A DNA stretch of 64,000 bases from Streptomyces sp. NBC_01353 (GTDB lineage Bacteria > Actinomycetota > Actinomycetes > Streptomycetales > Streptomycetaceae): positions 1,054,001 through 1,118,000 of the forward strand of contig NZ_CP108352.1 of assembly GCF_036237275.1 (NCBI RefSeq). Direction: 5' to 3'. Of the stretch, positions 19,415 to 33,801 are shown one piece after another. Position numbers and translations under genes: made by a program. A model generated the notes under the pieces. It did not search any database. It saw nothing but the letters and a program-made list of their open reading frames with translations, and was not told where the DNA came from. Numbering within the stretch: position 1 is the first letter of the stretch; every line of letters begins with the position of its first letter.

Positions 19415-20830
19415 TCAGGCCGCCTGGCCGAAGCCGGTGGCGGCCGGGTCCTGGTCGCGGAGCTGGGTGAAGTCGACGTCCAACTTCGTCTCGTACGCCT
19501 CGGGCTGGATGCCGAGCTCGTGCGTGCTGTACTCGCCGAACCTGTTGATGTGCTCGGTCAGGTACGGCGAGATGTGGGCCAGGTCCTCCGGCTCGATGGT
19601 CCATCCCTCCTCCAGCAGCTGCCGCACGATCTCCGCGATGTCCAGGGCGTTGTGAAGAATGACCGCGTTGGTGAGCAGAGCATTGAATTTCATCGCCTTC
19701 TCCTGCTCGACCGGGTCGTTGTCCGCGATGACGCCGCGGTTGCCGAAGCCGATCCACTGGGAGAACCGGTTGAACGACTCGGTCTTGTTCGTCGCCGCGG
19801 TCACCCGCCGGCGAAGCGCCGGATCGGAGAGGTAGCGCAGCAGCTGGACGGTGCGGATCACGCGGCCGACTTCGCGGAAGGCGGCGTAGGTGGCGTTCTT
19901 CGTGGAGCCGGAGCGCAGCCGCTTGAGCAGCGCAAAGGAGGAGATCGCCCCTTCCCGCACGGAGACCGCGACCTTCATCAGGTGCCGGAACTGGGACTCG
20001 ATCGGGTCGAAGTCGATGACGTTCTTACCGGCCTCGCCGAACAGCGCGTCGATGTGCACGTACTCGGTGGTCTTGCTGGGCCGGTAGAAGGTCAGGCCCT
20101 TCCAGTTCCAGATCCTGGGCATGAGATCGAAGCCCAGCAGGTGCGCGAGCGCGAACACCGGCTGGGACTGGCCCTGCGTGTCGGCGTGCACCGCGGTCGG
20201 CTTCACCTCGGAGGAGTTCTTCAGCAGGCCCTCGATGATGTAGACGGCCTCCCACACCCCGCAGGGGATGAAGTGCGTGAACAGCGCGATGTAGGTGTCC
20301 GAGATGTGGTGGTAGGCGATGCCGCCCGGCTTGCCGTACCGCACGGAGGTCTCGGCGAGCAGGTTGTCGAGGTAGGTGTCCATGTGGGTGCCGTCGGCGG
20401 CCACGGCGGTGCCGTCGCCCCACGCCTGGGAGATGTCCAGGCGGGCGTGCGCGTTGACGAGGTCGGCGATGGCCTCGTTCAGCAGCACGATGGAGAAGTG
20501 CCGGTTCGCCGTGTACGACAGCTCGTGACCTGAGACTCCAGGGATGTGGCGGGCGGTGTCGTAGGGGCCCATGTTGGTGCCCTTCACGAAGGTCGTGATG
20601 ACGTAGCGGCCGAAGGGATCGTCCAGCTTCGGCTCGTTGCCGGACGCCGGGCCGAAGCGCTGCCACCAGTCCACCCAGTACGCGGTCCGGGCAACGATCC
20701 CCATCAGCGAGCGTTCCGGCATCCTGGCCTTGATCTCCTGCTCCAGGCGCCTGGCCGAGGGCCGCTGTCCTTCCGAGCGGTGCGGCTTCAGTGACGGGAT
20801 ACCGGTCTCGGGGTCGATGACCAGGCCCCC
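19415..20830 (-). pseudogene. tnpA: Tn3-family transposase TnpA, C-terminal part only
   Basis: About 470 codons of a protein that is normally near 1000 residues. The frame is open back to about 20830, through GLVIDPETGIPSLKPHR and RLEQEIKARMPERSLM, well before the first ATG (20722). The DDE core of Tn3 transposases is still recognisable: D in WGDGTAVAADGTHMD, D in VHADTQGQSQPVF, E in NKTESFNRFSQW followed by NDPVEQEKAMKFNALLTNAVILHN. Its N-terminal DNA-binding half is lost where the sequence switches to the phosphodiester glycosidase gene, so it is not functional. Confidence 0.9.
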
Positions 20831-24209: not shown

Positions 24210-25586
24210 TCACGAGGAGGGCTCGGGCAGAGCGCGTCGCAGCGCCTTGTCCAGCTCCCCCGCGAGTGGCTTGACGTCGGGGGGACTGTCGCCGAACAGC
24301 TTGCTCAGATGCGTGGTGAAGGTCTGGGTGAAGGCCCCGTAGTGCGGCGTGCGGGGGCGGGCGACGGCCTCGCCCTTCAGGGCGGTGAGCAGCGTCGTCC
24401 GCGCGTACAGCGGGCGCCCGTCGTCACGCGGCATCCGGTCCGCGCTCTCCGCCGACGGCGAGGGCGCGGACGTGGCGGGGAGCCGGCAGGAGACCTTGTC
24501 CTCCGTGTATGCGGACTCCCGGGTCGCGGCGAAGCCCGCGTCGAGCAGGCAGCGTTCGCTCTGCGGGTCGGTGAGGAACCTGATCAGATCCCGCGCCGCT
24601 TCGGCGCGCTTTCCGGTGGCGGACGTGGTGACGGCGAGGTTCTGGCCTCCGAGGACCGCCTTGCCGGGCAGCGGGGCGACTCCGAGCCGGTCGGGGGTGA
24701 GCGACTGGTGCAACGTGCGGTAGGCGTAGGGCCAGTGGCGCAGGAAGGTCGTCCTGCCGTCGATGAAGGCGGTGAGGGACGCGGCCTCGTCGGAGCCGGT
24801 GGCGTCGGGGAGGAGGTAGGAGCTCTCGGTACGGGCGCGCAGCTCCTCGAGACCGTCCTCCAGGCCACCGACGGTGGCCGTGTAGCGGCCGCGTTCGTCG
24901 GTGAGGCCGTCTTCGAGGACCGAGGCGAACGCCTCGATGCCGTTGACCGTCAGGCCTTCGTACGGGGCGAGTTGGGTGGTCCACCCCGCCTCGACGCCGG
25001 GCAGGTTGGCCTGTTCGACGGTCCTGATGAGGTCGCGCACGTCGTCCCAGGTGGTGTTCTCGTCGAGACGGGTGTTCTGCACCCTGGCCTGCTCCAGATG
25101 GTCGCGGCGGTAGTAGAGCAGTCCGACGTCGGTGTTGAAGGGGACGGAGTAGGTCTTGCCGTCCCAACGGGCCGTACGGGCGACGGAGTCGATGACGTCG
25201 TCGTCGACGAGGCCCGCGTCCAGCTCCTGGACGAGCTCCGCCTCGGCGAACTCCGGCACCCAGGTGACGTCCAGGTTGACCACGTCGTACCGGGCGCTGC
25301 CGGACTGGAGGGCCCCGAGCAGCTGGCTGCGCTGCTGGTCGGCGGAGCCCGGCAGTTCGACCAGGCGAGCCTGGTGGGTGTTGCCGGGCTTGGCGTTCCA
25401 CTCCTTGATCAGCTTCTCGCGGATGCCACCCTTGCCGGTGACGTCCCGGCCGCTGGCGATCAGGAGCGGCGCACCGGAGTCCGTCGCGTTCTCGGGCGGA
25501 TCGCCGCCCTCGCCCGTGCACGCGCCGAGCGCGAGAAGACAGGCGAGGAGGAAAGTGGTGGTACGGCGGGATGCACGGGCGGTCAT
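24210..25586 (-). CDS. Extracellular solute-binding lipoprotein of the caspase locus
   Basis: 458 residues. A lipoprotein signal (RRTTTFLLACLLALGAC) gives Cys22. The mature protein has the bacterial type 1 sugar-binding SBP pattern (LIASGRDVTGKGGIREKLIKEW, DVVNLDVTWVPEFAEAELV, WDGKTYSVPFNTDVGLLYYRRD, AARDLIRFLTDPQSERCLL). No ABC permease or ATPase for it is nearby. Its ATG overlaps the stop of the caspase/vWA gene (ATGA), so it is coupled to a putative receptor. It could bind the ligand and present it to the extracellular domain of the receptor; this is inference. Confidence 0.8.
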   Translation of the reverse strand: MTARASRRTTTFLLACLLALGACTGEGGDPPENATDSGAPLLIASGRDVTGKGGIREKLIKEWNAKPGNTHQARLVELPGSADQQRSQLLGALQSGSARYDVVNLDVTWVPEFAEAELVQELDAGLVDDDVIDSVARTARWDGKTYSVPFNTDVGLLYYRRDHLEQARVQNTRLDENTTWDDVRDLIRTVEQANLPGVEAGWTTQLAPYEGLTVNGIEAFASVLEDGLTDERGRYTATVGGLEDGLEELRARTESSYLLPDATGSDEAASLTAFIDGRTTFLRHWPYAYRTLHQSLTPDRLGVAPLPGKAVLGGQNLAVTTSATGKRAEAARDLIRFLTDPQSERCLLDAGFAATRESAYTEDKVSCRLPATSAPSPSAESADRMPRDDGRPLYARTTLLTALKGEAVARPRTPHYGAFTQTFTTHLSKLFGDSPPDVKPLAGELDKALRRALPEPSS

Positions 25587-28210
25587 GTCCCCTCCCCTGT
25601 GCCGGCTCTGGCGACCTCGTCCCGCAGCCCGGCGATGAGGTCCCCCGAGGCGTCCAGGCACCGTCCGCCGCTCGCGGCGGCGATCCGCTCGTCGGGGCGG
25701 CCCTTGGCGCAGCCGCCGACGTCCAGGGACGCCATGACGACCGGGACCCCGGCCTGTCGCAGAGTCGTGAGCAGTCCCTCCAGCCGGTCGCCGGAGGTGA
25801 GATGGGTGTTGTCCTCGTCGTCCGTGACGAAGACGATCAGTCGGGGCCGGCTTTCGTCCCCTTCGTCCTCTGCCTTCATGGCGGTCACCGCGTCGCTCAA
25901 CGCCCGGTACGGATCGGCCTCGTTGTCCTCGATCCGGGCACTGCCGACGGTCCTCTTCGCCTCGTCGCGGTTCTTGTGCGTGCCGAGGGTCAGGAGGGGG
26001 GTGTACGGGCGGGCGGCTCCGGGCTTCGACGACACCGTCCACAGGCCGTACTCGTCCTGGCCGCCCAGTCCGCCGAGGGACTGCTGGATGATCCCCGGGC
26101 CGCCGCCGGGTCCGTCCCACGCGCCTCTCATCGAACCGGAGTTGTCGAGCAGGAACAGCACCCGGCCGGGGCCGTTGGCCTTGCGGTACCCCTCCAGGGC
26201 GGCGTTCATCGTCGTGGCGTCGCCCGCGTCCGGAAGCCGCCCGGGGTCGGCGAGCGCGCCGGCGGCGGGTGGCGAGGCGGCCGGGGAGGCCGGGGGCTGC
26301 GCGTCGCCCGGCCCGGCGCGGTAGCCGTCGGCCGTGAACTCCGCCACTCCGTCCGGGCCGGTCAGCCAGACCCTGAAGCGCTCGGAGGCATCGTCCCGGG
26401 CCGCCTTGTCCTGGTCGCCGCCGTCCCAGTGGACCCGCACGAAGGGCAGGGTGAGCCGGGGCACGTCGGCCGGGTACTCCGCCACGCGGGGAGTCCGGGT
26501 CTGGCGCCCACAGCCCACCCCCGTCCTCAGCAGGTGCTCCGGCACGAGCGCGGCGGTCTTCGTGTCGACGGCCGCCACCTTGGGCAGGTCGCACAGCAGC
26601 GCGCGGCCGTCGGGCAGCGGCCGTCCCGGCGCCAGGCCCCGTTCCACCCCGGCCGCGGCGCCGGGACGGTTCCCGTACAGGCCCACGGTGGCGAGGAGTC
26701 CGGAGTCGGTGTGTTCCGGGTCGCTCCGCGCCACGACGGCGCCGGCGGCGCGCTGGGTCAGTGCCTCGACGAACTGGGCGAGCGGGCGGCCGAACCGGTC
26801 CTTCTCCGATCCCTCGGCCAGCTGCGCGGGGACGGCCAGCACCATCGGCGAGTGGACGAACGGCTTGTGCGCCGTGAGCTCCACCGACGATCCGCCGCCG
26901 CCGTAGGAGCGGGCACGGTCGACGGCTGCGGCCGAGCCGGGAATCCAGATGTCCGGCTGGGGGCCGACGTCCCGCTGGGGGTTGGTCTCGGCGTCTGGGT
27001 CCTGCCAGAAGCGGGAGGAGTCCCGGAAGGCGGCGACGGCGTCGGTGGCCTTGGCGCCGTAGACGGTGATGCCGCTGCGCCGGCAGTCGCCCTCCCGGTT
27101 GGCGGGCGACTCCAGATAGGTGTTGACCGCCTTGCGTACGGTCGGCTCGGAGTCCGGGTCGGTGAGCAGTCTGAGTTCCAGGGGAGACGTGCACGGGTTC
27201 GTCGGCAGTGCGCGGTAGACGGCGAACCCCACCACGACGGCCAGGGACAGGGCCAGGGCCGCCCAGGCCAGGACGGGGACACGGCGCCATCGCCCGCCGC
27301 GCCGGGGCGGGACGGGCGGAGGGGGCGGCGGAGGCGGAGGGGGCTGCGGAGGCTCGACGTCGGCGGCGGCGAGGACGACGTCGGCGGCGGCGGCGAGGAC
27401 GACGTCGGCGGCGGCGGCGAGGACGACGTCGGCGGCGGCGGCGGCGGCGAGGACGACGTCGGCGCCGTCGGCCGGGCAGCTCTGCGGCACCCACGGAGTC
27501 GGCTTCTTGCGCAGGGTGGTGTGGTTCCTGGACATGTACGTCCTGAGCGCGTCGGCGAGCGCGCTGAAGCTCACCTCGCCACCAGCGCCGTCGACGCCCT
27601 TCTCGAGCATGCGCACCAGCTGGGCGGTGAACGGTGTGGGGGTGCCCGACTCCCCCGCGTCGATCCTGTCGTTCGCCTGCACGCAGGCGAGCAGCGAGAT
27701 GCGCTCGCGGTGGTCTGCGGGCAGCCGGTTCCAGGCCGCCGAGGCGTTGCCGGCATAGCAGCAGTCGAGAACGACCACCACCTGCTCGGCCCGGGCCTGG
27801 CACAGCGCCGGGAGCACCTCGCTCCAGCGGACGGCCTGCAGGAACGCCGGTGGATCTCCCGGCACGATCGTCGTACGGGGCATGGCGAGCCACAGTTCGT
27901 CCGGCTCGTTGTAGCTGGACACCAGACCGTGTCCGGCGAAGTACAGCAGGAGCAGCCCGTCCGCCCGGTCCCGGGCGCGCATGAGGTCCCGGAAGAACAG
28001 GTCGGAACCCGCCGGGCTGCTGGTGGTGATGTCCTCCTCGCGGAACACCCCACCCGATCGCAGCGCCCGTTCCAACTCCGTGCTGTTGTGCCGGACGGCC
28101 GCGATGTCGCCCAGCACGCCGGACGGATCCGGTGGCAGATCGGAGGTGTATTCGGGCACCGTGACGAGCAGGGCGTGGTTCACCCTTCCGCGCGGGTCGA
28201 AGCGCGCCAC
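25583..28210 (-). CDS. Transmembrane caspase with extracellular solute-binding and vWA domains
   Basis: 875 residues with a striking order. Residues 1-245: peptidase C14 caspase-like domain with YFAGHG (His94) and DCCYAG (Cys151). Residues 250-285: alanine-rich DVVLAAA repeats. Residues 287-302: a Pro tract. Residues about 311-333: a single membrane helix (VPVLAWAALALSLAVVVGFAVY). After it: a solute-binding-like region (LELRLLTDPDSEPTVRKAV, PDIWIPGSAAAVDRA, FVHSPMVLAVPAQLA) and residues about 665-870 a vWA domain with MIDAS D689-x-S691-x-S693. The caspase would be in the cytoplasm and the SBP/vWA outside. Start M is directly after EACC1 (4 bases). Caspases with EACC1 partners occur in proposed actinobacterial conflict systems; function here is inference. 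Confidence 0.88.
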   Translation of the reverse strand: MARFDPRGRVNHALLVTVPEYTSDLPPDPSGVLGDIAAVRHNSTELERALRSGGVFREEDITTSSPAGSDLFFRDLMRARDRADGLLLLYFAGHGLVSSYNEPDELWLAMPRTTIVPGDPPAFLQAVRWSEVLPALCQARAEQVVVVLDCCYAGNASAAWNRLPADHRERISLLACVQANDRIDAGESGTPTPFTAQLVRMLEKGVDGAGGEVSFSALADALRTYMSRNHTTLRKKPTPWVPQSCPADGADVVLAAAAAADVVLAAAADVVLAAAADVVLAAADVEPPQPPPPPPPPPPVPPRRGGRWRRVPVLAWAALALSLAVVVGFAVYRALPTNPCTSPLELRLLTDPDSEPTVRKAVNTYLESPANREGDCRRSGITVYGAKATDAVAAFRDSSRFWQDPDAETNPQRDVGPQPDIWIPGSAAAVDRARSYGGGGSSVELTAHKPFVHSPMVLAVPAQLAEGSEKDRFGRPLAQFVEALTQRAAGAVVARSDPEHTDSGLLATVGLYGNRPGAAAGVERGLAPGRPLPDGRALLCDLPKVAAVDTKTAALVPEHLLRTGVGCGRQTRTPRVAEYPADVPRLTLPFVRVHWDGGDQDKAARDDASERFRVWLTGPDGVAEFTADGYRAGPGDAQPPASPAASPPAAGALADPGRLPDAGDATTMNAALEGYRKANGPGRVLFLLDNSGSMRGAWDGPGGGPGIIQQSLGGLGGQDEYGLWTVSSKPGAARPYTPLLTLGTHKNRDEAKRTVGSARIEDNEADPYRALSDAVTAMKAEDEGDESRPRLIVFVTDDEDNTHLTSGDRLEGLLTTLRQAGVPVVMASLDVGGCAKGRPDERIAAASGGRCLDASGDLIAGLRDEVARAGTGEGT
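27356..27460. repeat. In-frame GGC-rich tandem repeat coding for the DVVLAAA linker
   Basis: About four units of GACGACGTCGGCGG(CGG)n..GAG, of 18, 24, 24 and 30 bases; the lengths differ by multiples of 3 in the GGC run, so the frame is kept. On the minus strand it encodes the ADVVLAAA repeats of the caspase linker. Slippage in the GGC run would change the linker length. Confidence 0.85.
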
Positions 28211-28214
28211 CGGG

Positions 28215-28574
28215 CTACCTCGGATCGCCGTCCGAGGTGACGTCGAAGTCGGGGGGATCGTCCTCTCCGACCGACCGACGGTTCTCCTGCCACTCCCGCA
28301 CCGCGGACTTCGCCTGCTCCAGGAGTTCGACGAGGACGACTCCGGTCACCCCTTGCAGAACGACGAGGACGATCTCGGTCCCGAGACCCATCGGGGTGCC
28401 GTGCTCGTCCGGTGTGGCCCGCTGCTCGACCCGTAACTCCCCCTTCTCGAGCTTCTCCTTCACGATCCGCTCGCGTGTGAGCCAGGTCAGCAGGGCGTCG
28501 ACATCACTGCGTGATGTCTCCTGGACCGGCCTGATGCGGATCTCGTGCCTTGTCACACCCTCCCCTGGCGTCAT
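28215..28574 (-). CDS. EACC1-like effector-associated small protein
   Basis: 119 residues. RHEIRIRPVQ and DVDALLTWLTRERIVKEKLEKGELRVEQR form an N-terminal region, then GTPMGLGTEIVLVVLQGVTGVVLVELLEQAKSAVREWQENR, a hydrophobic Gly-rich helix and amphipathic tail like the effector-associated constant component EACC1, which pairs with caspase or TPR effectors in actinobacteria. It is encoded 4 bases upstream of the caspase gene, fitting an operon and a direct interaction. A GTG six codons into the ORF is the alternative start; both have poor ribosome sites. The call is from memory of the motif. Confidence 0.65.
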   Translation of the reverse strand: MTPGEGVTRHEIRIRPVQETSRSDVDALLTWLTRERIVKEKLEKGELRVEQRATPDEHGTPMGLGTEIVLVVLQGVTGVVLVELLEQAKSAVREWQENRRSVGEDDPPDFDVTSDGDPR

Positions 28575-28635: not shown

Positions 28636-29295
28636 TCAGGCCGCCACACAGTCGGACCACTCGACCGTGCGTTCGCACCAGCGGTCGAGCAGGACGCGGT
28701 CGTGTCCGACGGCGAGCAGGCCGGCGCCCGATTCCGCGCGGTAGGACTCCACCGCGGCGACGAGGGCGGCCGTGGTCGAGGCGTCGAGCATGGCCGTCAT
28801 CTCGTCGCAGACCAGCCAGCGCGGGCGGAGCACCAGCGCCCGTGCCAGGCAGGCGCGTTGGAGCTGGCCGTCGCTGACCTCGTGCGGGCGGCGCGCCAGG
28901 AGGTCGTCGGTGAGGCCGACGGTGGGCGCGAGTGCGGCGAGCCGTTCGGGGACCTCCGCGCGGCGGCCGCCGGCCCGCAGGGGTTCGGCGATCAGATCGC
29001 GCAGCCGCAGCCGCGGGTCGGCGGACATCCGGGGCTGCTGGAACACCACTCCGACGGAGGTCCGCAGGGCGCGCGGGGCACGGTGTCGCCAGCCCCGCGC
29101 CTCCTGCCCGTCGACCGTGACGCGGCCGGCCTCCGGCCGGTGGAGCAGGGCGGCGACCCGGGCGAGCGTGGACTTGCCGCACCCGCTGGGTCCGAGCAGG
29201 CCGACCGACTCGCCGGGTTGGAGCGTCAGCGAGGCGCCGCGGAAGACCGGCGTCCGGCGGTCGTAGCCGGCGGTGATGGCGTCGAGTTCAAGCAC
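28636..29295 (-). CDS. nikE: Nickel/oligopeptide-type ABC importer ATPase 2
   Basis: 219 residues, GTG start with GGAGG upstream. Walker A is GPSGCGKSTL, signature is the degenerate VSDGQLQRACLARAL, and Walker B is RWLVCDEMTA. It is short for the family: it ends soon after the H-loop region and lacks the C-terminal oligopeptide-ABC extension. Its start overlaps the preceding ATPase by 8 bases. It is the last of five ABC genes on the minus strand. The operon's own Nur-like operator argues for nickel rather than peptides. Confidence 0.78.
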   Translation of the reverse strand: MLELDAITAGYDRRTPVFRGASLTLQPGESVGLLGPSGCGKSTLARVAALLHRPEAGRVTVDGQEARGWRHRAPRALRTSVGVVFQQPRMSADPRLRLRDLIAEPLRAGGRRAEVPERLAALAPTVGLTDDLLARRPHEVSDGQLQRACLARALVLRPRWLVCDEMTAMLDASTTAALVAAVESYRAESGAGLLAVGHDRVLLDRWCERTVEWSDCVAA

Positions 29296-30280
29296 GGGGG
29301 CCCTCCGGGTGGTGGCAGGCCACTCCGGCGAGCGGCGACGGCAGCGTGCCGCAGACCTCCGTCGCCCGCGGGCACCGCGGGGCGAACGCGCAGCCGGGCG
29401 GCAGGGCGGTCAGCTCGGGCGGCATACCGGGGATGGGGGTGAACGCACGGTCGGGCAGGGCGTTCAGCAGGCCGCGGGCGTACGGGTGGCGCGGGCCCGG
29501 CTCGCCGAAGAAGCGGTGGGCGGCCGTCGTCTCGACGATCCGGCCGGCGTACATCACCGCCACCCGGTCGGCGATGCGTTCCGCCGCGGCCAGGTCGTGG
29601 GTGATCAGCAGCAGCGCCCGGCCATCGTCGGCGTGGCGGCGCAGTTCGTCGACGGTCCGCTCGACCAGGTCGCGATCGAGGCCGGTGGTCGGCTCGTCCG
29701 CGAACAGGAGCGGGGCGTCGCCGATGAGCGCGAGGGCGGTCGCCGCGCGCTGGGCGAGTCCGCCGGAGAGTTCGTGCGGGTATCGGTCGAGGTGCCCGGC
29801 GGGGAAGGCGGCCCGTTCGGCGGCGGCCTCGGCAGCGGCACGCCGCTCCCGGCGCGGAGCGCCGGTCAGTTCGCGGACGGTCTCCTCGAGCTGGGCGCGC
29901 ACGGTCCGCACGGGCGTGAGATGGGCGGCCGGGCTCTGCGGTACGAGGCCGACGCGCCGTCCTCGTACCGTACGGGCCAGTGTCCGCTCGTCGGCGGCCA
30001 GCAGGTCGACGCCGTCGAGGAGCGCCGTGCCGGACGCCTCGGCGTTGCCGGGCAGGAGTCCGAGGAGCGCGGAGGCGAGGACGGACTTGCCGCAGCCGCT
30101 CTCGCCGACGAGGGCCAGGCACTCCCCCGCCGCCAGGTCGAAGTCCGCGTCGGTGACGGCGGCGACATGCCGTCCGCCGCGCATCCGGAAGCGGACGGAG
30201 AGCCCGCGCACGCTGAGGACGGCCTCGCCGGCGCGCTCGGCGGTGACGGCCTCCAGGGCTCGTACGAGGCGCGGGTTCAC
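29288..30280 (-). CDS. nikD: Nickel/oligopeptide-type ABC importer ATPase 1
   Basis: 330 residues. Walker A VGESGCGKSVLAS, Q-loop LVPQSPAAHL, signature ELSGGLAQRAATAL (SGGLAQ instead of SGGQRQ), Walker B PLLFADEPTTGLD and H-loop LITHD. The C-terminal extension has the Cys motif PGCAFAPRCPRATEVC typical of oligopeptide/nickel ATPases. GTG start overlapping the permease stop (GTGA). Works with NikE in energising uptake. Confidence 0.83.
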   Translation of the reverse strand: MNPRLVRALEAVTAERAGEAVLSVRGLSVRFRMRGGRHVAAVTDADFDLAAGECLALVGESGCGKSVLASALLGLLPGNAEASGTALLDGVDLLAADERTLARTVRGRRVGLVPQSPAAHLTPVRTVRAQLEETVRELTGAPRRERRAAAEAAAERAAFPAGHLDRYPHELSGGLAQRAATALALIGDAPLLFADEPTTGLDRDLVERTVDELRRHADDGRALLLITHDLAAAERIADRVAVMYAGRIVETTAAHRFFGEPGPRHPYARGLLNALPDRAFTPIPGMPPELTALPPGCAFAPRCPRATEVCGTLPSPLAGVACHHPEGPRA

Positions 30281-31113
30281 AGCATCAGCTCCGATCGGCG
30301 GCGCGGGCTGAGCCGGTCGCGCCACACTCCCGCGAGGCCGGCGATCGCGAGTGTCGGCACGATGAGCAGCAGGCCGGGGAAGAGCGTCGGCCACCAGTCC
30401 CCGGCCAGCAGCGAGGAGCGTGCGGACTGCACGAGGTTGCCGAGGCTGGCCTGGTGGCTGGGGAGGCCGAGGCCGAGGAAGGAGAGCGCGGACTCGTGCC
30501 ACATGGCGTGCGGCATCATCAGGACGGCGGCGAGCCCGGCCTGCGGCAGTACGGCGGGCAGCAGATGGCGCGCGGTCACGCGCCACCGTGAGGCGCCGCC
30601 GGAGATCGCCGCGTCGATGTAGGGGCGCGAGCGGAGCGAGAGCACCTCGGAGCGGACGATCCGGGCGGTCGAGAGCCAGTGCGTGAGGGCGACGGACACG
30701 ATGACCGGCCACACGCCCGGCCGGAACATGGCCACGATGAAGATGCCGAGCAGCAGGTGCGGTACGGAGGAGAAGGCGTCGACGATCCGCATCACGACCC
30801 GGTCGGTCCATCCGCCGAGGGAGGCGGCCGCCGCGCCGACGGCGGTGCCGATGACGGTGGCGACGAGCGCGGCGACCAGGCCGACGAGGAGCGAGATCCG
30901 CAGCCCGTAGACGCAGCGCAGCAGCAGGTCGCGGCCGACGTCGTCGGTCCCGAAGGGGTGCTCCCAGGACGGCGGGAGGAGCTTCAGGGACAGGTCGACG
31001 GCCTGTTCGTCGAGTGGGACGAGCGGCGGTACGAGGAGCACGGCGAGCGCGACCGCGCCGACGATCACCGCGGAGGTCCACATCCGTACGCGGCGGGCCA
31101 GATGGTCAGCCAT
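30277..31113 (-). CDS. nikC: Nickel/oligopeptide-type ABC importer permease 2
   Basis: 278 residues, DppC/NikC type. Five to six hydrophobic segments, with the N-terminal domain lead-in HPFGTDDVGRDLLLRCVYGLRIS and the cytoplasmic loop YIDAAISGGASRWRVTARHLLPAVLPQ (EAA motif region). Start overlaps the end of the upstream permease by 8 bases. Forms the membrane channel with NikB. Nickel as substrate is inferred from the Nur-like box upstream of nikA. Confidence 0.83.
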   Translation of the reverse strand: MADHLARRVRMWTSAVIVGAVALAVLLVPPLVPLDEQAVDLSLKLLPPSWEHPFGTDDVGRDLLLRCVYGLRISLLVGLVAALVATVIGTAVGAAAASLGGWTDRVVMRIVDAFSSVPHLLLGIFIVAMFRPGVWPVIVSVALTHWLSTARIVRSEVLSLRSRPYIDAAISGGASRWRVTARHLLPAVLPQAGLAAVLMMPHAMWHESALSFLGLGLPSHQASLGNLVQSARSSLLAGDWWPTLFPGLLLIVPTLAIAGLAGVWRDRLSPRRRSELML

Positions 31114-32071
31114 CGAAGCCCACCCTCGGGTCGGCGAGCCCGTACAGCAGGTCGGAGAGGAGGTTGCCGAGGAGCACGGCGGCGGTGGCGAGCACGGTGA
31201 GCGCGGCGAGCAGCGGGAAGTCCACGGAGGTGGCGGCCTGGACGGTCGCGGCGGCGATGCCGGGCCAGCTGAAGACGGTCTCCACGAGGAGGGCTCCGGT
31301 GATGAGTTCGGGGACGCGGGAGCCGACCAGGGTGAGCATGGGCAGCATGCCGGAGCGCAGGGCGTGGCCGAGCAGGACGGTCCGCTCCCGCAGGCCACGC
31401 GCGCGTGCCCCGCGTACGGGGTCCTCCTCCAGGGCGTCGCCGACACCCTGCCTGACGTACAGGTAGAACCAGGGCAGTTGGGAGACGCCGAGGACGAGGG
31501 CGGGCAGCACGAGGTGGCTGATCACCTGGTCGGCGGTGACGGTGTCGCTGGCGGTGTCGGTGAGACCGCCGGCCGGCAGGGCACCGAGCCTCAGCGCGAA
31601 GAACCAGATGGCGAGCAGCCCGAGCCAGAAGGCGGGGGCGGCTTCCAGGGTGTACGCGGCGGAGCTGACGGTCCGGTCGAGCAGGCCGCCGCGGCGGCGG
31701 CCGGCGAGGACGCCGAGCGCGGTGCCGAGCAGGATGGCGACGAGGAAGGCGGTGGCGGCGAGGAGCGCGGACCAGCCGATGCGCTCGGCGATGACGTCGG
31801 CGACGGGCCGGCGCATGACGCTGGAGTCGCCGAGGTCGCCGCGCAGGGCGGCGGTGAGCCAGTCCCACCAGCGGGTGACGAGGGGCTGGTCGACGCCGAG
31901 GTTGGCGCGGAGCTGGTCGAGGTTCTCCTGCGAGGCGGTGAGCCCGGCGGTGCCCGCGTATGCCTTGACGGGATCGAAGGGGGAGGCGGCGGCGACGGCG
32001 AAGACCGCGAAGGTGACGGCGAGGAGGACGGGGACGGCGAACAGGGCCCGCCGTCCCGTCATCCGGGCCAT
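31106..32071 (-). CDS. nikB: Nickel/oligopeptide-type ABC importer permease 1
   Basis: 321 residues, DppB/NikB type: N-terminal helix (RRALFAVPVLLAVTFAVFAVAA), then LRANLGVDQPLVTRWWDWLTAALRGDLGDS, and the later loop DPVRGARARGLRERTVLLGHALRSGMLPMLTLVG. Six hydrophobic segments. Follows nikA by 23 bases. The channel half partner of NikC. Confidence 0.83.
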   Translation of the reverse strand: MARMTGRRALFAVPVLLAVTFAVFAVAAASPFDPVKAYAGTAGLTASQENLDQLRANLGVDQPLVTRWWDWLTAALRGDLGDSSVMRRPVADVIAERIGWSALLAATAFLVAILLGTALGVLAGRRRGGLLDRTVSSAAYTLEAAPAFWLGLLAIWFFALRLGALPAGGLTDTASDTVTADQVISHLVLPALVLGVSQLPWFYLYVRQGVGDALEEDPVRGARARGLRERTVLLGHALRSGMLPMLTLVGSRVPELITGALLVETVFSWPGIAAATVQAATSVDFPLLAALTVLATAAVLLGNLLSDLLYGLADPRVGFDG

Positions 32072-32094
32072 GGCCCCCCAGGGGAGGCGCCGGC

Positions 32095-33702
32095 TCACTT
32101 CTTCGCGTCCTTGGGCGTCCACGCCTCGACGTTCCACCAGGGGCCGGAGGCCAGGCCGTGGTCGTGCGGCTCGATCTGGGTGGAGAGTCCGTCCCAGCTG
32201 TCGTTCACCACATAGAGGTGGTCGATGTGGGTGAGGAAGGTGTAGCCGGGGTTCTTCACGAGCTCGCGCTGGACGGTGGAGTAGGCGGCGTGCCGCTTGA
32301 CGGCGTCGTTCGTCCGACGGCCGTCCTCCAGGGCCTTGTCGACGGCCTTGTTGTCGTACCAGGCCATGTTGTTGAAGCCGTCGCCGCCGAGAGTGGACTT
32401 CAGGAGCAGGTACTGGTCGAAGTCGGGGTCGCCGGGCGAGCCGCCGCCGGCGAGGACCGCGTCGGTCTTCATCCGGGGCTCGATGACCTCCCAGGTGCCG
32501 CCCTGAGTCTTGATCTCGATGCCGGCCTTCTTGGCGTCCGAGGCATAGGCGAGGGCGTGGTCCTGGCGGAGCTTGTCGCCGGAGAGGTACCAGAGCGGGA
32601 ACGTGGCCCGTACGCCGTTCTTCACGCGGATGCCGTCGGGGCCGGGCTTCCAGCCGGCCTCGTCGAGGATCTTCTGGGCGCCGGCGAGGTCGTGGCGGCG
32701 TTCGGTGCCCTTGGCGAACCACTCGCTGTCGGTGGGGACGGGTCCGTAGGCGGGCTTTCCGGCGCCTTCGAGGATCTTGTCGACCATGGCCTGCCGGTCG
32801 ACGGCGGCGTCGAGGGCGCGGCGGACGGCGGTGTCCCCGGTGACCTTGTGGTGGGTCGGGAGGGTGACGGTCCGGTAGTCGTAGGTCTTCGCGGCGTAGG
32901 TCTTCTTCGCCTTGTCGTTCCCGAAGCCCGCGGCGAGGTTGGGCGGCAGGATGGCGGCGTCCAGGTCGCCGGCGCGGAGCCGGGTGGCGCGGACGTCGTC
33001 GTCCTTGATGATCGCCATGGTGAACTTCTTCACCCGGGGCGCGCCGTTCCAGTAGGTCGGGTTGGCCTTGAAGCTGAGCTTCTCGCCCTTGGACCAGTCA
33101 CTGAGGACGTACGGTCCGGTGCCGATCGGCTTCGTGGTGAAGGCGCCGGTGTTGACGTCCTGCTTCGCGGCGACGTGCTCGGGGGCGATGGCGTGGACGG
33201 TGCGCTCGGCGAAGGGCGCGTAGGCGTACTTGAGCCGGAAGACGACGGTGTCGTCACCGACCGACTCGACGCTCTTGAGGGCGTCGAGTTCGGTGCGGGA
33301 GGGGTTGTTCGTCTTCGGGTCGAGGATCGTCCGGTACGTGAAGACGACGTCCTTCGCGGTGAAGGGGACGCCGTCGCTGAAGGTCACGTCGTCGCGGAGG
33401 GTGTACGTGTAGGTGAGGCCGCCGTCGCTGATGTGGGGCAGTTTCAGGGCGAGGGCCGGCTTCAGCGTCATGTCGCCGTCGAAGGCCAGGAGGCCGTCGA
33501 AGATCTTGGAGTTGCCGTCCTTGCCGTAACCGAGGAGGGGGCTGAGGGTCTCGGGCTCGTAGGCGATGCCGACGACCGCGGAATCCTTCGGGCCGCCGGA
33601 GCCCGCGGCGGTCCCGCCCGGGTTCGAACAGGCCGCCGCGGTGAGGGCCAGTGCTCCGGCCAGCGTCGCGGCGGCCGCGCCGCGTATGGATCGGGCGGTC
33701 AT
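32095..33702 (-). CDS. nikA: Nickel/oligopeptide-type solute-binding lipoprotein (SBP family 5)
   Basis: 535 residues. A lipoprotein signal (AAAATLAGALALTAAAC) leads to a Ser/Gly linker and an SBP family 5 domain: VGIAYEPETLSPLLGYG, LPHISDGGLTYTYTLRDDVTFSDGVPF, KDVVFTYRTILDP, GTGPYVLSDWSKGEKLSF, TAVRRALDAAVDRQAM. This family includes NikA and DppA. The chosen ATG follows a GAGGGG stretch; upstream starts are possible. First gene of the operon, with a TTGCGA-N5-TCGCAA box about 34 bases upstream of the start. That box fits the nickel regulator Nur, known to repress nik-type genes in Streptomyces. Confidence 0.83.
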   Translation of the reverse strand: MTARSIRGAAAATLAGALALTAAACSNPGGTAAGSGGPKDSAVVGIAYEPETLSPLLGYGKDGNSKIFDGLLAFDGDMTLKPALALKLPHISDGGLTYTYTLRDDVTFSDGVPFTAKDVVFTYRTILDPKTNNPSRTELDALKSVESVGDDTVVFRLKYAYAPFAERTVHAIAPEHVAAKQDVNTGAFTTKPIGTGPYVLSDWSKGEKLSFKANPTYWNGAPRVKKFTMAIIKDDDVRATRLRAGDLDAAILPPNLAAGFGNDKAKKTYAAKTYDYRTVTLPTHHKVTGDTAVRRALDAAVDRQAMVDKILEGAGKPAYGPVPTDSEWFAKGTERRHDLAGAQKILDEAGWKPGPDGIRVKNGVRATFPLWYLSGDKLRQDHALAYASDAKKAGIEIKTQGGTWEVIEPRMKTDAVLAGGGSPGDPDFDQYLLLKSTLGGDGFNNMAWYDNKAVDKALEDGRRTNDAVKRHAAYSTVQRELVKNPGYTFLTHIDHLYVVNDSWDGLSTQIEPHDHGLASGPWWNVEAWTPKDAKK

Positions 33703-33735
33703 CGTGCCCACACCCCTCTTGAAGATCATCTGTTG

Positions 33736-33752
33736 TTGCGATCGACTCGCAA
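33736..33752. promoter_or_regulatory. Nur-like box upstream of nikA
   Basis: TTGCGA-N5-TCGCAA, a perfect 6+6 inverted repeat with the spacing of the Nur (nickel-responsive Fur family) box tTGCaa-N5-ttGCAA. It lies in the nikA promoter region next to an AT-rich stretch. When nickel is plentiful, Nur should repress the operon. Confidence 0.72.
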
Positions 33753-33801
33753 TTAAACAGTATGTAGAGGGGTGTAGACACAAGGGCCCCTTACTTCCGC
33801 C

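Follow-up and report, generated by a model that had tools for sequence, protein, structure and literature searches.

The window, that is, the whole stretch of 64,000 nucleotides that was analysed (C1:1054001-1118000 of the 8.57 Mb host genome), contains a row of three genes on the minus strand, placed as an initial annotation had placed them. The row comprises an EACC1-like gene, a gene for a membrane receptor with a caspase domain and a gene for a solute-binding lipoprotein, the last of which overlaps the receptor gene by 4 nt. The features are as follows, in window positions:

28215-28574, minus strand: EACC1-like gene, 119 aa
25583-28210, minus strand: receptor gene (caspase, linker, transmembrane helix, solute-binding-protein-like domain, vWA domain), 875 aa, GTG start
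27473-28189, minus strand: caspase domain, residues 8-246
27929-27931 and 27758-27760, minus strand: codons of the caspase residues His94 and Cys151, respectively
27278-27472, minus strand: low-complexity linker, an ADVVLAAA repeat and then a proline run, the least conserved part of the receptor
27209-27271, minus strand: single transmembrane helix from topology prediction, residues 314-334, directly after RRGGRWRR
26306-27193, minus strand: extracellular solute-binding-protein-like domain, residues 340-635
25601-26233, minus strand: extracellular vWA domain, residues 660-870, with the MIDAS motif D689xS691xS693
24210-25586, minus strand: gene for an LpqY/TMBP-like solute-binding lipoprotein, lipobox LGAC, codon of Cys23 at 25518-25520

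Immediately upstream and on the same strand, window positions 28636-33783 (minus) carry peptide/nickel-type ABC transporter genes, named by eye. These genes recur beside the trio in only 0 to 2 of 64 loci (L073 has three), which agrees with the earlier view of the lipoprotein as a solute-binding protein without its transporter. Nine flanking genes of the window were checked, and none is common beside the trio elsewhere (64 loci). On the other side, positions 19415-20722 (minus) resemble, by eye, the C-terminal part of what is presumably a Tn3-type transposase. The host genome holds one further EACC1 match above the cut-off and further caspase matches below it (L203, C1:2756373-2756543; L206, C1:3949869-3950216).

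The receptor is the central element of the row, and full-length unbroken relatives of it were found at 57 of 67 loci. An alignment of the window receptor with 46 of these 57 (A1) serves as the basis for the conservation values that follow. The N-terminal part matches the Pfam C14 family with 24.6 bits (cut-off 21.4), and H94 and C151 are kept at at least 98% among the aligned relatives, so that the annotated caspase with these two residues is upheld. The best family overall is NCBIfam NF047832 (caspase_w_EACC1), which the window receptor matches with 115.8 bits, below the curated cut-off of 140, and which is matched at E<=0.001 by 47/47 aligned receptors. The outer part matches SBP_bac_11 with 32.4 bits (cut-off 25) and VWA with 22.5 bits, slightly below the cut-off of 23.8. 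The vWA identity is backed by Foldseek matches, by VWA matches at E<=0.01 in 18 of the 47 aligned receptors and by the MIDAS residues D689, S691, S693, T796 and D797, each kept at at least 98%, as are six cysteines of the ectodomain; the composite outer part described initially therefore holds. The same is true of the single membrane helix, predicted at residues 314-334, where hydropathy is at least 1.6 in 47/47 aligned receptors and the inner flank is the more positive one in 46/47. The linker shows a mean column identity of 0.24 (residues 251-275) and 0.16 (residues 276-300), and the linker-plus-helix region is long and variable, spanning 66-216 aa in 47 sequences. A GC-rich tandem repeat with units of about 24 and 27 bp lies inside the linker at window positions 27354-27472; it consists of in-frame copies of a DVLLAA-like stretch 3' of the caspase domain.

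The window copy of EACC1, searched alone with profiles, matches no EACC1 model. It aligns, though, with copies that do: in an alignment of all 63 EACC1 copies and that of the window (A2), PF19953 is matched by 42/64 copies at E<=0.001, the window being counted among the 64, and by 56/64 at E<=1. It is thus through its relatives that the gene annotated as EACC1-like can be assigned to this family. The AF2 model of the protein shows a ferredoxin-like alpha+beta fold (mean pLDDT 80.6), in which a strand (residues 66-72) is followed by a helix (residues 78-102), residues 51-80 having block pLDDT values of 69-79. The window copy is hydrophobic (2.15), yet a value of at least 1.6 is reached in only 25/64 copies, and the best 19-mer contains a charge in 62/64. 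We doubt that EACC1 is the single conserved TM helix that the EACC1-caspase system of Kaur et al. 2020 calls for.

The lipoprotein matches SBP_bac_8 with 85.1 bits, and a profile comparison with proteins of solved structure places MalE3, LpqY-type proteins and a trehalose/maltose-binding protein closest to it. In an alignment of the window protein with 59 of 60 lipoproteins (A3; the protein of L033, for which no start was found, was omitted), the lipobox column is cysteine in 58/60 rows and the strict lipobox pattern is present in 54/60. LpqY is the lipoprotein of the LpqY-SugABC trehalose importer, in which Q59, D80, N134, E241, W259, G334 and R404 contact trehalose, according to the available text of PMC7949145. 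When these positions are mapped by our reading of a HMMER alignment, Q59, D80, E241, W259, G334 and R404 correspond to identical residues in the lipoprotein, and N134 to an aspartate. The corresponding Q85, D106, D153, E267, W285, G314 and R410 (D153 being Asn in LpqY) are invariant in 60/60 rows. Among 19 distant lipoproteins encoded beside other outputs (see below), D106, E267, W285, G314 and R410 are kept in 19/19, D153 in 18 (Asn in one) and Q85 in 14. Because the pocket residues are invariant, the ligand is likely to be a glucose-containing disaccharide or a similar sugar. The resemblance to LpqY thus comprises the lipid-anchored binding protein and the predicted glucose-disaccharide pocket; the difference from LpqY-SugABC is that the trio has no permease or ATPase of its own, the partner of the lipoprotein being the receptor.

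The 67 loci were collected in a single scan, with short peptide patterns taken from the receptor of the window as queries, which biases the sample to close kin; 64 of them belong to Streptomyces or to unplaced actinobacterial records. The other three (L090, Paractinoplanes; L091, Micromonospora; L092, a Ktedonobacteraceae bin) yielded distant caspases only. The trio is intact and in the same order in 56/67 loci, with EACC1 3-6 nt ahead of the receptor gene in 56/56 of them and the lipoprotein frame overlapping the end of the receptor in 35/56 (in one, L033, no lipoprotein start was found). Of the 11 non-intact loci, two (L090 and L092) are the distant caspases just named, four (L053, L067, L071 and L077) are cut by a contig end within or just past the receptor, and in L066 and L070 the receptor frame is broken. 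In L079, EACC1 was missed by phmmer and found by profile (71 bits). L084 (1358-3493) carries EACC1 and a caspase-helix protein in which SBP_bac_3 (34.3 bits) is the binding domain, and a search there for a lipoprotein of the trio's family found none; it is another sensor type on the same EACC1-caspase output. L091 (5319-8174) has EACC1 (44.6 bits), a caspase with hydrophobic C-terminal stretches and the lipoprotein, and lacks the SBP-vWA ectodomain.

The spread of the trio is patchy among same-genus genomes. The ectodomain occurs in 24 of 101 of these, the host included; exactly these 24 also contain an orthologue of the lipoprotein (E<=1e-60). The two are adjacent in 23, and in the 24th they are split over two contigs. 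The caspase part is present in every one of the 24, and a search for EACC1 succeeded in 23; in the one exception the locus begins inside the receptor. Judged from these neighbourhoods, the caspase forms of Streptomyces always come with the predicted lipoprotein partner. An orphan ABC solute-binding protein lying next to a caspase gene by chance might have been suspected from the window, where the trio adjoins an apparently unrelated peptide-type ABC gene row (by eye). The order is, on the other hand, kept in 56/67 loci and in 23/24 genomes, the 24th being cut by a contig end, and conservation across species excludes chance, to which we give a negligible probability. The grouping proposed for the window recurs elsewhere; its absence from other genomes would have refuted the initial reading. 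As a separate observation, five genomes (L066, L070, L115, L116 and L121) have a receptor gene that is broken up into two or more frames; L115, L116 and L121 are three of the 24 ectodomain genomes, with the receptor in two frames. One TGA lies within a lipoprotein match (G092, C1:391371-392738). The split frames and this TGA reflect either decay or assembly error.

Beyond the genus, a class-wide survey with the ectodomain matched 17/345 genomes at E<=1e-5, and the ectodomain profile, run on the genomes of two families, matched 17/35 and 160/200 at E<=1e-25, SBP-vWA proteins thus being common in two other actinobacterial families. From the family surveys the best-scoring 49 loci were inspected (L134-L182; L134, L153 and L154 repeat earlier loci). 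Among these, the lipoprotein adjoins 30/32 loci with at least 200 bits and 0/17 with less than 165 bits (within about 1.5 kb). The N-terminus varies among the lipoprotein-bearing loci. In one genome (L129/L134), the ectodomain carries an EAD1 (38.7 bits), and the preceding gene encodes EAD1-TIR (TIR_2, 89.7 bits; EAD1, 38.9 bits), the two EAD1s being identical at 93/95 positions. In another (L168/L199), a Trypsin_2 domain (46.9 and 48.3 bits) is preceded by a Trypco2 gene (76.8 bits). A further genome (L165/L198) gives a trypsin match of 25.4 and 25.0 bits, below the cut-off of 27.6, and the gene before that receptor is not Trypco2. Tandem caspases (197.8 bits) with EACC1 (50.9 bits) were found in one genome (L132), and L164, L167 and L169 are cyclase-like by eye only. 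The other lipoprotein-bearing loci have short, hydrophobic N-termini; those of L153, L155, L161 and L182, scanned against the family library, gave nothing above cut-off. For every non-Streptomyces output in which a known domain was recognised there is one genome, to which one trypsin match below cut-off can be added; this lowers our confidence in the receptor reading and in the broader proposal given below.

A tree was built from 57 ectodomains, 19 of them chosen from the available caspase-type ones; of the 49 loci from the family surveys it omits 12, none of which has the lipoprotein. The tandem caspase falls into a single group with the caspase forms (support 100/99), the two trypsin-like forms are nested inside forms with membrane helices only, and the cyclase-like, EAD1 and lipoprotein-less forms cluster together, so that the swapped outputs lie on separate branches. 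In 23/57 rows the lipoprotein is present and the ectodomain is preceded only by membrane helices, as judged from length and hydropathy, 4 of the 23 having been scanned against the library. One related branch is without lipoprotein. In 25 wider neighbourhoods, the receptor and the lipoprotein were the only gene clusters seen in more than five. Since the ectodomain-lipoprotein pair is kept together on differing outputs, the outer pair resembles a plug-in sensor, a general sensor module joined in some bacteria to trypsin-like or EAD1-TIR outputs.

These swaps bear on a different interpretation, which follows the model of Kaur et al. 2020 and in which the SBP-vWA part would be effector or cargo: EACC1 would sense an invader, the caspase would cut the linker and the outer part would be released. 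The text of Kaur et al. describes EACC1-caspase systems with up to 50 C-terminal domains, reads these as effectors and proposes auto-proteolysis (PMC7159879), and the variable 66-216 aa region between caspase and ectodomain would suit such a cut. The ectodomain is, however, tied to a sugar-binding lipoprotein in the same 24 genomes, it also appears attached to an EAD1 adaptor and to a trypsin-like protease, beside which EACC1 was not detected (the profile may miss distant copies), and the part to be released is already outside. We regard this explanation as improbable.

The reading as an outside-in receptor, in which a sugar brought by the lipoprotein would switch the caspase, is the one we hold to be probable, with a fair margin of doubt. 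An outside-in receptor as such had been put forward in the initial annotation and remains the best supported reading, strengthened by the constancy of the outer pair across outputs. The sequences show the gene row, the predicted topology, the intact catalytic and metal sites and the swapped outputs. The lipoprotein, lipid-anchored outside the cell, would bind a glucose-containing disaccharide or a similar compound, as its pocket residues suggest, and the loaded form would dock on the SBP-vWA ectodomain. The signal might then pass through the single helix and alter how the caspase domains meet. EACC1, encoded in the same gene row and presumably located beside the caspase, either in the cytoplasm or at the face of the membrane, would set the threshold. 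Once active, the caspase could cut its own linker, EACC1 or a target protein, with growth arrest or cell death as the likely, if unproven, outcome.

Whether killing is the purpose may be questioned. The membrane-only forms (23/57 tree rows) imply that the basic job of the module may not be death, and these forms, the lipoprotein-less branch and L091 without the ectodomain count against a pure death role. It could be that the trio is a nutrient or envelope sensor working by regulated proteolysis, in which the caspase cleaves a regulator of development or metabolism and the cell survives. An LpqY/TMBP-like lipoprotein would fit such a sensor, as would the many module relatives without a known killing domain and the nine tested flanking genes, none of them common beside the trio elsewhere. 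It is at odds with the EAD1-TIR, Trypco2-trypsin and EACC1-caspase outputs, which belong to proposed conflict systems. We judge a surviving-cell role to be rather unlikely, with an appreciable chance nonetheless.

Under the outside-in reading, a broader proposal can be made, tentatively and at somewhat less than even chances: an actinobacterial, modular, death-receptor-like family would combine an LpqY-like lipoprotein and an SBP-vWA sensor with EACC1-caspase, with Trypco2-trypsin or with EAD1 accompanied by EAD1-TIR, and its trigger would be an outside sugar signal, for instance a sugar of the trehalose or maltose type from lysed kin or envelope damage, instead of an internal signal. For most bacterial caspase and EAD systems the trigger is not known, and the anatomy described here points to a sensor, a partner and a ligand class for a bacterial caspase. 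If the proposal is true, bacteria possess surface receptors through which an external cue turns caspases on, and the sensor has been coupled to several death-linked outputs.

The EACC1-caspase pair was described by Kaur et al. 2020 as a two-gene conflict system ('System 4'), with the variable C-terminal domains taken as effectors and EACC1 as the sensor (PMC7159879). The trio has in common with it the 5' EACC1 gene and a 3' gene with an N-terminal caspase, conserved catalytic His and Cys and a variable C-terminus, and differs in adding the lipoprotein gene. The layout had initially been called little described; this is less well supported, as Kaur et al. already mention, for EACC1-caspase proteins, TM helices together with an extracellular PBP domain, as well as a vWA (PMC7159879). 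That text, figures and supplements aside, does not state that PBP and vWA occur within one protein, and the word 'lipoprotein' appears in it once, in the reference list. Neither the available text of PMC7159879, PMC8195603 and PMC10907252 nor the literature searches yielded a lipoprotein partner, a sensor common to caspase, trypsin and EAD1 outputs or a ligand class. New relative to the text of Kaur et al. 2020 are thus the partner lipoprotein, the swapping of outputs, the class of ligand and the doubt on EACC1 as a membrane helix. Literature searches, covering text without figures or supplements, did not find the three-gene form.

The proposed docking of the lipoprotein may be likened to that of binding proteins on VirA, Tar and LuxQ. 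In ChvE-VirA, MBP-Tar and LuxP-LuxQ, a free solute-binding protein offers its ligand to the external portion of a membrane receptor; those receptors have a kinase or chemotaxis domain as output, whereas here it is a caspase, a trypsin-like protease or EAD1. Caspases also drive cell death in animals, and animal death receptors share with the receptor described here the layout of an outer ligand domain, one helix and an inner death-linked domain, a likeness of layout only, with no relation of the ectodomains being claimed.
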